Of a stretch of DNA of 64,000 nt, positions 557 through 64,000 are shown piece by piece. The position numbers and the translations under genes are program-made. Location of the stretch: NCBI GenBank assembly GCA_022842325.1, contig JALHPU010000003.1, forward strand, positions 124,001-188,000, read 5' to 3'. The notes beneath the pieces were generated by a model that worked only from the letters and a program-made list of their open reading frames with translations, made no database searches and was not told the origin of the DNA. The DNA is from Sulfuritalea sp. (GTDB taxonomy: Bacteria > Pseudomonadota > Gammaproteobacteria > Burkholderiales > Rhodocyclaceae). The stretch's first letter is position 1; every line of letters starts with the position of its first letter.

Positions 557-580
557 CCGTCCTGCCAGCGCCGACTTTTG
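557..580 (+). repeat. dispersed 24-bp motif, copy 1 (intergenic)
   Basis: Copy of the dispersed word CCGT-N3-GCCAGCGCCGACT plus a T-rich tail, in the non-coding DNA just beyond the vapC stop. See the findings for the full copy list and consensus. Confidence 0.6.
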
Positions 581-598
581 CATACTTCTGTCGGGACC

Positions 599-1015
599 TC
601 AAACCGGCGCCGACACCTGAGGCTCCAAGCCAAGACGGCGCGCAGTCTTGGCAAAGCGCGCATCGAAGGTAGCGAGGCCGCTGCACAGACCGGACTGAGC
701 CAGATGCAGGGCGTCGGAGAAATCCAGTCCCTGGCGATACCAGACAAGTGCCTGGCCCACTGCGGCAGCACGGTCGACGGTCAGGTTATCGACCGCGAGC
801 ATGTCCTCGAACACGGCGGCGATATCGTCCGGCAACATCTCGTAGGCTCCGCGCAGCACCCATTCGAGTTCCTCGATCACTGTCACCGGCACGAACAGTT
901 GCTGGCCCGATGACAGCAATGCCTGGGCGCGCTTTCTTTGTACCTTGGTCGCCGCATCGGCATCGATTTCGGTCGCAATGGCGCGGGCAAGTACATTGGT
1001 GTCCAGGGCGATCAT
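599..1015 (-). CDS. vapC: VapC-like PIN-domain ribonuclease toxin
   Basis: This is a 138-residue PIN-domain protein, the usual VapC length. VapC toxins are Mg-dependent endoribonucleases that cleave tRNA or rRNA and are held in check by the cognate antitoxin. The acidic site residues are visible: Asp5 in the opening IALDTN, Glu48/Glu49 in VIEELEW, Asp101 in DFSDALHLA and Asp118 in ATFDARF. A longer reading of the frame back to 1309 is open, but the ATG at 1015 begins the canonical PIN strand and overlaps the stop of the AbrB-type gene upstream by four bases (ATGA), so I chose it. It forms a two-gene toxin-antitoxin operon with the gene at 1012-1269. Which RNA it cuts cannot be told from sequence. 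Confidence 0.88.
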   Translation of the reverse strand: MIALDTNVLARAIATEIDADAATKVQRKRAQALLSSGQQLFVPVTVIEELEWVLRGAYEMLPDDIAAVFEDMLAVDNLTVDRAAAVGQALVWYRQGLDFSDALHLAQSGLCSGLATFDARFAKTARRLGLEPQVSAPV

Positions 1016-61700: not shown

Positions 61701-61754
61701 CCGAGCAAGCCCTGCGTTTGGCGCAGTTGTCCCGCTTCATTGCATAATCGGCCG

Positions 61755-64000
61755 ATGACAACTCCATCGCCACAAGCAACGCCGCCATCCGCCCCGGCAT
61801 GGCATGCCCTCCCCGCGGATCATGCGCTGGCCCACCACGGAGTCGATGCCGGCAGCGGACTGAGCGAGGACGACGCGGCCGCACGCTTGGCGCAGCACGG
61901 CCCCAACCGGCCCCGTACCGCACCGGGCCGCAGCGCGCTGTCGCGCTTCGGCACCCAGTTCACCCAGCCGCTGGTGCTGGTGCTGATCGCCGCCGGCGTC
62001 GTCACCGGCGCGCTCGGCGAGTGGGTCGACACCTCCGTCATTCTCGGCGTGGTGATCGTCAACGCCATCATCGGCTTCATCCAGGAAGGCAAGGCGGAAC
62101 AGGCGCTGGCGGCGCTGGCGCGCGCCGTCGCCACCGAAGTCACCGTGGTCCGCTCCGGCCGTCGCCGGCGCATGGATGCCGCGCACCTGGTGCCGGGCGA
62201 CGTGGTCTGGCTGGTCGCCGGCGACAAGGTGCCGGCCGACCTGCGCATCCTCTCCGGCAAGCAATTGCGCACCGTCGAGGCGGCGCTGACCGGCGAGGCG
62301 GCACCGATCGACAAGCGCCACGACCCGCTGCCCGAGGACACGCTGCTCGCCGACCGGCGCAACATGGCGTATGCCGGCACCACGGTAGTCGCCGGCCAGG
62401 GCCACGGCCTGATCGTCGCCACGGCGGACGCCACAGAAACCGGGCGCATCGCCGGGCTGATCGCCGCCGCGCCGGAAATGGCCACGCCGCTGACCAGGAA
62501 AATGGGCGAATTCGCCGGCCTGCTGCTCTGGGTCATCCTCGGCCTCGCCGCGCTGACCTTCGTCATCGGCGTCTGGCGCGGCGAAGCCTGGGGCGACATG
62601 CTGATGGCCGCCGTGGCATTGGCCGTCGGCGCCATCCCCGAGGGCCTGCCGGCGGCGATGACCATCACCCTGGCCATCGGCGTCAACCGCATGGCCAAAC
62701 GCCGCGCCATCATCCGCCACCTGCCGGCCGTGGAAGCGCTGGGCAGCACCACGGTGATCTGCTCCGACAAGACCGGCACGCTGACCGAAAACGCGATGAC
62801 CGTCACCGAGTTGTGGGCCGGCGGCGCCAGCGTCACGGTCGAGGGCCACGGCTATGCGCCGGAAGGGAGCTTAAGCGGCGGCGAACCCGGCCCGGCGCTG
62901 CGCGAAACGCTGATCGCCGGCGCACTGTGCAATGACGCCACGCTGATCTTCGAGAGTCGGCGCTGGCAGCACGCCGGCGACCCGACCGAAGTCGCCCTGC
63001 TGGTGGTGGCGCGCAAGGGCGGGCTCGATGAAACCACGCTGCGCCACCTGTTCCCGCGCCGGGACGAACTGCCCTTCGATTCCGTGCGCCAGACCATGGC
63101 CACGCTGCACGAGGTGGAAGGCCAGCCGACGCTCTACGCCAAGGGCGCCATGGAGAAGATCCTGCCGGCCTGCGACCGGCTGCTGACCGCCGAGGGCCAC
63201 GAAGTTGCGCTCGATGCCGCCGGACGCGAGTTGATCGCCGCGGCGGCGGCGGCCACGGCCACCCGTGGCCTGCGCGTGCTGGCCATGGCGCGGCGTCAGG
63301 CCGCCGATTGCGCCGAGCTCACCGAACCGGCACTGGATGCCGGTCTGGTCTTCCTCGGCTTCGCCGCAATGATGGACCCGCCGCGCAAGCAGGCCGTCAC
63401 TTCGGTGCGCACCTGCCATGCGGCCGGCATCAAGGTGAAAATGATCACCGGCGACCATGCCGAAACGGCACGGGCGATCGCCGCACAGATCGGCATCGTC
63501 TCGGACGGCAAGTCCGCCGAAGTGCTGACCGGACGCGACCTGGCGCAGCTCGACGACGCGGCGCTGCAGGACGCCGCAAGCCGCGTCGATGTCTTCGCCC
63601 GCGTCGAACCCGAGCAGAAGCTGCGCCTGGTGCGCGCGCTGCAGGCGCAGGGCGAGGTGGTGGCGATGACCGGCGACGGCGTCAACGATGCGCCGGCACT
63701 GAAGCAGGCCGACATCGGCATCGCCATGGGCCAGGGCGGCACCGACGTGGCCAAGGAAGCCGCGGCGATGGTGCTGACCGACGACAACTTCGCCACCATC
63801 GAAGCCGCCGTCGAGGAAGGCCGCGGCATCTACGACAACCTGGTGAAGTTCATCACCTGGACGCTGCCGACCAATTTCGGCGAGGGCCTGGTAATCCTGG
63901 CCGCGATCGTCGCCGGCGTGACGCTGCCTATCACCCCGCTGCAGATCCTCTGGATCAACATGACCACCGCGGTACTGCTCGGCCTGCCGCTGGCCTTCGA
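61755..64000 (+). CDS. P-type cation-transporting ATPase (P2-type, partial at window end)
   Basis: This is the first 748 codons of a P-type ATPase that runs off the window. Visible are an N-terminal cation-ATPase domain (SEDDAAARLAQHGPNRP), helices M1-M2, the actuator loop LTGEAAPIDK (TGEA instead of TGES), the helix-4 motif AVGAIPEGLPAAMTI, the phosphorylation loop CSDKTGTLTENAMTVTE and the hinge GDGVNDAPALKQADIGIAMG. PEGLP with DKTGT indicates the P2A (Ca2+, SERCA/PMR1-like) or MgtA-related class; the exact ion is unresolved. It starts 54 bases after the GGDEF-EAL gene. A copy of the dispersed motif lies at 62951-62974. Confidence 0.93.
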   Translation, partial: MTTPSPQATPPSAPAWHALPADHALAHHGVDAGSGLSEDDAAARLAQHGPNRPRTAPGRSALSRFGTQFTQPLVLVLIAAGVVTGALGEWVDTSVILGVVIVNAIIGFIQEGKAEQALAALARAVATEVTVVRSGRRRRMDAAHLVPGDVVWLVAGDKVPADLRILSGKQLRTVEAALTGEAAPIDKRHDPLPEDTLLADRRNMAYAGTTVVAGQGHGLIVATADATETGRIAGLIAAAPEMATPLTRKMGEFAGLLLWVILGLAALTFVIGVWRGEAWGDMLMAAVALAVGAIPEGLPAAMTITLAIGVNRMAKRRAIIRHLPAVEALGSTTVICSDKTGTLTENAMTVTELWAGGASVTVEGHGYAPEGSLSGGEPGPALRETLIAGALCNDATLIFESRRWQHAGDPTEVALLVVARKGGLDETTLRHLFPRRDELPFDSVRQTMATLHEVEGQPTLYAKGAMEKILPACDRLLTAEGHEVALDAAGRELIAAAAAATATRGLRVLAMARRQAADCAELTEPALDAGLVFLGFAAMMDPPRKQAVTSVRTCHAAGIKVKMITGDHAETARAIAAQIGIVSDGKSAEVLTGRDLAQLDDAALQDAASRVDVFARVEPEQKLRLVRALQAQGEVVAMTGDGVNDAPALKQADIGIAMGQGGTDVAKEAAAMVLTDDNFATIEAAVEEGRGIYDNLVKFITWTLPTNFGEGLVILAAIVAGVTLPITPLQILWINMTTAVLLGLPLAF
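62951..62974 (-). repeat. dispersed 24-bp motif, copy 13 (in the P-type ATPase gene)
   Basis: Plus strand reads CGAGAGTCGGCGCTGGC then AGCACGC. It is antisense-oriented to the gene and in the third reading frame (sense peptide ESRRWQH). Confidence 0.55.

Follow-up and report, generated by a model that had tools for sequence, protein, structure and literature searches.

The 64,000-nucleotide stretch of Sulfuritalea sp. DNA analysed here (GenBank assembly GCA_022842325.1, contig JALHPU010000003.1; hereafter, the window) carries many copies of one non-palindromic DNA word, which raises the question of what such a word does. A preliminary description, made from the letters of the window, had proposed either an uptake-like or a chromosome-organising role. 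We find that the word is real and strong, that it extends genome-wide and beyond the window, and that it is most likely a DNA uptake sequence. The window is part of contig 3 of a draft genome of 4.89 Mb (G000; G denotes genomes and L loci), and contains CCGTNNNGCCRGCGCCGACT six times exactly, eight times with one change and four times with two. In the whole genome, we identified 466 forward and 374 reverse matches with at most two changes (840), compared to 6 and 3 (9) for a control in which the pattern was reversed. A sample of 858 kb from this genome contained 88, 59 and 33 sites with 0, 1 and 2 changes, vs. 0, 1 and 2 for the reversed pattern; near-miss variants are in excess as well (59 + 33 vs. 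1 + 2 at one and two changes), and the counts at three changes (52 vs. 36) are near background. Within the 20-mer, positions 8, 9 and 1 account for most of the single changes. The consensus of 147 sites is RTCGCCGTNNCGCCAGCGCCGACTYTT, with no conservation in the flanks, and the refined word, CGCCGTNNCGCCAGCGCCGACTYTT, is asymmetric, 25-27 bp long and has abrupt edges. Genes were predicted with a home-made caller, and gene names (murC, murG, hrpA etc.) were read off the translations, with no database call. In 40 synonymous codon shuffles of the predicted genes, the mean count was 4.2 at 0-1 changes (89 observed) and 20.7 at up to two changes (114 observed). The preliminary description had named counts no higher than in codon-matched sequence, or copies confined to the window, as outcomes that would speak against it; the genome shows an excess over both the control (840 vs. 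9) and the codon-preserving shuffles, and the word is found genome-wide.

Of the 180 sites in the 858 kb, 114 are genic, 62 intergenic and 4 partial, so that intergenic sites exceed the non-coding share 2.5-fold (p = 2 × 10−12). Genic sites are antisense more often than sense (70 vs. 44, p = 0.019), and occupy all three codon phases in both orientations, with two phases favoured. Close spacing is avoided (15 gaps below 1 kb vs. 33.5 expected), and the spacing is more even than random (coefficient of variation 0.755 vs. 0.982 expected); gaps between neighbours are shorter than 300 bases in 3 of 175 cases, which indicates that paired terminators are not the rule. By GC content, we counted 5 copies in 9 segments below 58%, 46 in 56 segments at 58-64%, and 128 in 106 segments at 64% or more, numbers too small to establish word-poor islands. 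The longest word-free stretch sampled, C1:16093-37238 of G000, spans 21 kb at 51% GC, vs. 66% in the window, and is possibly a recent acquisition.

Twenty 20-kb samples of a one-contig relative (G002, 3.80 Mb) held 74 sites, with the word in 19 of the 20. Seventeen of these samples were put in two halves by the run of the GC skew (one, at 760 kb, was of opposite sign), leaving out three samples with 8 of the 74 sites; of the 66 classed sites, 36 are leading and 30 lagging, which argues against roles like those of Chi or of FtsK-orienting polar sequences (KOPS). Strand counts over the whole of G002 are 370 vs. 370. In two draft genomes, where contig orientation is arbitrary, the counts are 466 vs. 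374 (G000, p = 0.0017) and 367 vs. 286 (G013). A KOPS-like guide for chromosome segregation would be asymmetric and genome-wide, as the word is, and might leave a strand difference such as that of the window's draft genome, arbitrary as its contig orientation is; the near-equal leading and lagging counts and the exact balance in G002 strongly disfavour this explanation, to which we give hardly any credence. Of the two roles first proposed, the uptake-like one is favoured, and orientation-guided chromosome organisation is left unsupported by the leading and lagging counts.

Comparison with related genomes, which the preliminary description had suggested, showed enrichment in all 31 genomes of the genus examined, the window's included (103-840 copies; control at most 15), with the fewest in G017 (103). 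In a sample of 297 genomes from the family, 40 genomes from 8 of 68 genera had at least 85 copies, and the remaining 257 had at most 47. None of 368 other genomes sampled from the class had more than 4 copies at one change. Close relatives of carriers can be without the word: G660 has 8 copies in a genus with 10 of 11 genomes word-rich, and G503 has 4, compared to 85 in its sole listed congener, G443. We further fetched 80 named loci around MurG, 65 of which, together with the window, entered a MurG tree with weak deep branches. All 30 carrier-labelled rows of the 66 fall in one clade of 39, with support (94/87) slightly under the program's mark of 95/80; the other 9 rows of the clade, some of them short loci, are not labelled carriers, and copies at one change or fewer are absent from all 27 rows outside it. 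The carrier label needs at least 9 changes on this tree, vs. 21.9 for shuffled labels. The row nearest to the window, L094, is from an unclassified Rhodocyclales genome (90% identity), and several loci labelled Sulfuritalea are 89% identical to the window's MurG, for which reason we describe the window's genome as Sulfuritalea-like. NCBI assigns the genus Sulfuritalea to Sterolibacteriaceae.

A second lineage of the family spells the word differently. In 200 kb of G430, a genome matching Candidatus Desulfobacillus denitrificans, CGCCGTNYYGNNGGGACTGACTTT occurs 39 times, compared to once for its reversed control, and the Sulfuritalea spelling does not occur in this sample; the whole genome has 22 sites of the latter at up to two changes (control, 3). 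The spellings CGCCGTNNCGCCAGCGCCGACTYTT and CGCCGTNYYGNNGGGACTGACTTT share two boxes, which lie 12 bases apart in both. Of the 28 pairs of the boxes CGCCGT and GACTYT found at spacings of 6-18 in the G430 sample, 27 have the 12-base spacing, and in the sample of the window's genome 56 pairs have it, vs. 4 at all other spacings. A few copies of each spelling were found in 200 kb of G443. The sequences also suggest a possible third spelling, CGGCGTGYCGCCRCGGCTGACTTT, with 8 sites at up to two changes in L086, L095, L096 and L112; this pattern matches 17, 9 and 8 sites in G002, G566 and G430 as well, and thus is not specific. The loci in question (L086 and kin) lie outside the carrier clade of the MurG tree, with its weak deep branches. 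No other spelling was seen in 152 kb of G017, the top words of which include simple CTCTGCG repeats, in 142 kb of G660, or in 200 kb of G473, and grouped loci of Zoogloea, Thauera, Azoarcus and Propionivibrio had no exact two-box word at the 12-base spacing.

To trace how copies arose, the 80 loci were compared in local alignments. In 591 pairs, covering 46 of 150 sites, the word stands opposite a sequence with at least five changes between well-matched flanks, with no gap; a gap falls within the 20 bases in 2,490 of 9,021 pairs. At the window's five sites in the MurG region, 101 of the 113 gaps belong to the sites at 40868, 43562 and 44806, compared to 4 of 80 ortholog alignments with a gap inside the murG copy and 8 of 78 inside the murC copy. 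The latter had been described as replacing family sequence without a change in length, and for most orthologs this is what we observe. When flank identity is about 70%, at least 15 of 17 word bases are retained in 74% of pairs within the Sulfuritalea-like set, vs. 10% of control windows; the frequencies are 68% vs. 9% for Sulfuritalea-like loci paired with other carrier loci, and 1% vs. 10% for pairs with the word-poor set. These pairs share sites and are not independent; the other carrier loci were picked for holding exact copies, those of the Sulfuritalea-like set were chosen by rank, and the word-poor set is the remainder, including a few carrier-clade loci such as L094. The presence of such loci probably explains the one opposite bin of the word-poor set (86% vs. 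53% of controls at 85% flank identity, n = 14). Retention among carriers, together with its rarity towards the word-poor set, indicates that the sites largely originated in the carrier lineage through clustered substitutions and were retained thereafter.

These patterns bear on two further explanations. A small mobile or repetitive extragenic palindromic (REP)-like element, or a chance effect of codon or protein usage, might account for the favouring of two of the three codon phases and for a separate REP-like family in the same genome that shares GCCGACTTC with the word. An element of this kind is at odds with the lack of conserved flanks or of an extended body and with length-neutral replacement at 46 of 150 sites, and a codon or protein effect with copies in every phase and both orientations and with shuffled counts well under those observed; we consider either origin extremely improbable. 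A site of a chromosome-organising or nucleoid-associated protein, the specificity of which shifted between lineages, deserves more weight while being rather unlikely. Even spacing, occurrence on both strands and throughout the chromosome, retention of orthologous sites and a bipartite site with fixed spacing would all suit such a protein. Conversely, no ori/ter or orientation pattern is visible, with the word in 19 of 20 samples of G002, and hundreds of long, near-invariant genic sites, lost in relatives and respelled, would in our judgement be unusual for such a protein.

A DNA uptake sequence accounts for these observations best. Word-bearing fragments would be preferred by an extracellular DNA receptor, probably one of the minor pilins of the type IV pilus; the DNA would then enter via the PilQ secretin, be passed on by ComEC and reach the chromosome by recombination. 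Uptake would thereby be mostly of own-kind DNA, and this bias could spread and preserve the word where sequence constraint permits. We infer the uptake function, the receptor and the recombination from the comparative analysis. Established by observation are the word itself, its numbers and genomic behaviour, its restricted distribution, substitution followed by retention, and one other spelling. The uptake genes that the preliminary description had suggested looking for are present in part: PilQ (26 of 26 genomes tested), ComEC (292 of the 297 family genomes) and minor pilins, both of the ComP_DUS type (55 of 61 genomes) and of the GspH/FimT type (55 of 61, with the window's genome barely above the cut-off), were found, and ComEA was the component that largely failed to appear.

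Several findings weigh against an uptake role. The chief one, barring a divergent periplasmic substitute in the standard uptake pathway, is the scarcity of ComEA: of the 18 word-bearing genomes tested, only 2 have a TIGR00426 match above the cut-off, and the window's genome has a single sub-threshold match, in an 828-aa frame. Over all 26 genomes, 3 exceed the cut-off (two carriers and one non-carrier), and 20 have any match; most of these matches lie in frames of roughly 800 or more residues, which do not resemble ComEA. Pilus and ComEC genes are equally common in word-poor relatives and do not discriminate carriers; word-poor G660 and G503 and word-reduced G017 retain both ComEC and PilQ, and no link of word loss to ComEC loss was found among the 297 family genomes. 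In the MurG tree, the locus with the second spelling (L118) does not belong to the carrier clade, so that a common origin of the two spellings would be conjectural, and no report of transformation in any carrier was found in the literature consulted. A further point of this kind came from the search for a receptor, for which prepilins were listed for 10 genomes, and those of 8 were partly fetched and compared. A conserved solo pilin (C3:106756-107472 of the window's genome) was attractive for its lack of a close copy in word-poor G660, and has only distant matches in G017, G660 and G503 (5.5 × 10−35, 1.6 × 10−25 and 3.2 × 10−28, respectively). We rejected it on co-occurrence: the carriers G685, G638, G585, G428 and G027 likewise have only distant matches, the carrier G010 (528 copies) has none, and word-poor G437, G516 and G528 have close ones, with some match in 246 of 297 genomes. 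FimT and ComP-type pilins do not set carriers apart, being found in word-poor relatives too. As a separate observation, an exact copy of the word (C3:17026-17045, L035) lies upstream of a ComP-type minor pilin gene in the window's genome; this gene heads a cluster resembling fimT-pilV-pilW-pilX-pilY1 (names read off the translations).

The word also occurs in viral sequences. A viral collection contains at least 120 stretches with the exact 23-base word, vs. 1 for the reversed pattern; the Desulfobacillus spelling is present in 6 stretches (reversed, 0) and the third spelling in none. Of ten reading frames from four of these stretches, five match phage families, including primases, a terminase large subunit and a methyltransferase, which indicates that at least some word-bearing stretches look like real phages; host DNA may account for others. 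The phage-like loci L211, L271, L274, L224, L249 and L261 have 50-56% GC and exact copies, and some of their word pairs recur, at 293 bases in L211, L271 and L274 and at 1405 bases in L249 and L261; the pair in L224 is 215 bases apart. Uptake sites on the Haemophilus phage HP1 were reportedly studied in the 1980s. A self-tag for defence or repair, that is, a Chi-like nuclease attenuator or a modification site, would likewise be dispersed and lineage-specific, and might be met in some phage contigs. We regard it as very unlikely, given that the word is far longer than known Chi or modification sites, that it shows no replichore polarity, and that phages carry a word which an anti-phage tag should exclude.

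Within the window (Table 1), the 13 copies listed in the preliminary description are all confirmed, 6 of them exact to CCGTNNNGCCRGCGCCGACT and 7 with one change, and all are among the 14 best; the list had overlooked one site with one change, 40868(-), and four with two changes (1406, 13540, 16300 and 52244). A weak copy reported in rsmH near 47155 has 5 mismatches and is no copy under the refined model. The two intergenic copies (557 and 58565) were recognised correctly. An antisense orientation of 10 of the 11 listed genic copies holds for the window, and is a mild bias in the 858 kb.

Table 1. Copies of the word in the window, with position, strand and context.
Feature	Position	Strand
Word copy, exact core, intergenic	555..579	+
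Word copy, exact core, antisense in hrpA-like gene (13045-16791 -)	13828..13852	+
Word copy, exact core, antisense in gene 17201-18985 +	17347..17371	-
Word copy, 1 change, antisense	23553..23577	+
Word copy, exact core, antisense	24513..24537	+
Word copy, 1 change, antisense in murC-like gene	36495..36519	+
Word copy, 1 change, sense in murG-like gene	37955..37979	-
Word copy, 1 change, sense in murD-like gene; site 40868(-)	40865..40889	-
Word copy, 1 change, antisense at end of murE-like gene; site 43562	43560..43584	+
Word copy, 1 change, antisense in murE-like gene; site 44806	44804..44828	+
Word copy, exact core, antisense	50033..50057	+
Word copy, 1 change, antisense	55729..55753	+
Word copy, exact core, intergenic	58563..58587	+
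Word copy, 1 change, antisense	62952..62976	-
Weaker copy, 2 changes; site 1406	1404..1428	+
Weaker copy, 2 changes; site 13540	13538..13562	+
Weaker copy, 2 changes; site 16300	16298..16322	+
Weaker copy, 2 changes; site 52244	52241..52265	-

To our knowledge, uptake words have been described for two families of bacteria, Neisseriaceae and Pasteurellaceae, and abstracts from the literature search name these two as well. If the word is an uptake sequence, it would be a third case, long and bipartite, in environmental bacteria with cultured members, and natural transformation would be, or would recently have been, a strong force in the carrier group, for which it would also offer a handle for genetic work. 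At least two spellings, together with losses in close relatives, would then permit a comparative test of why uptake words exist, the candidate reasons being mate recognition, molecular drive and an intracellular role. A search of the open literature, with preprints and most subscription papers outside its scope, returned no report of such a word in the Sulfuritalea-type group, and none of the terms sought occurs in a paper on Desulfobacillus (PMC8402940).

The same genome holds a family with a likeness to REP sequences and bacterial interspersed mosaic elements, GTAGGGC(C/G)GACTTCAGTC(G/C)GCC, on contigs 1-4 of G000 (e.g., L009:1178-6600), with 62 copies at up to three changes in the 858 kb, often clustered 36-39 bases apart. 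Copies of this GTAGGGCCGACTTCAGTCGGCC family are palindromic and lie outside predicted genes in 53 of 62 cases, whereas the word is non-palindromic and avoids close spacing. The uptake signal sequence (USS) of Pasteurellaceae is, like the word, mostly genic, in excess in non-coding DNA and evenly spaced, according to PMC1939737, and within genes uptake words favour the reverse complement, according to PMC2346458, which resembles the antisense lean reported here. PMC1939737 further describes uptake words as free of palindromes, as lying in reading frames in 65% of cases in H. influenzae, compared to 35% in N. gonorrhoeae, and as in excess outside genes and without orientation bias; significant even spacing is reported, which its authors judge insufficient for compaction, and no intracellular binder is identified there. 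The USS belongs to an unrelated family and is an unrelated word; the reverse complement of our word begins with AAAGTCGGCG, one indel off the USS AAAGTGCGGT, which we take as chance.

The DNA uptake sequence (DUS) of Neisseriaceae shares with the word many dispersed copies on both strands, in genes and between them, and a lineage-specific distribution with spellings that vary by lineage (PMC3630211 and PMC3868556), the dialects being distributed in agreement with the core-genome tree in PMC3630211. Its receptor is ComP, a minor type IV pilin, and a minor pilin is also proposed as receptor in PMC12616744; the receptor of our word is putative. The word is about 25 bp long with two boxes 12 bases apart, whereas the DUS has 10-12 contiguous bases and belongs to a different family. 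The DUS elements GCCGT and CTGA both occur, in order and 10 bases apart, in the Desulfobacillus spelling, which may be a coincidence. It is conceivable, and in our judgement improbable, that a third large dialect system of uptake words, sharing descent with the neisserial DUS, exists in betaproteobacteria of the Rhodocyclaceae type. Its ancestral word would consist of two DUS-like half-sites, GCCGT and CTGA, one helical turn apart and recognised by a minor pilin similar to ComP; changes of this receptor would respell hundreds of sites per lineage, and phages would carry the spelling of their hosts. The word shows the genomic hallmarks of uptake words that were tested, and the agreement of its features with the published hallmarks, together with a second lineage that spells it differently, supports the uptake-like interpretation given earlier. 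No other known kind of sequence fits the word as well as DUS and USS do.

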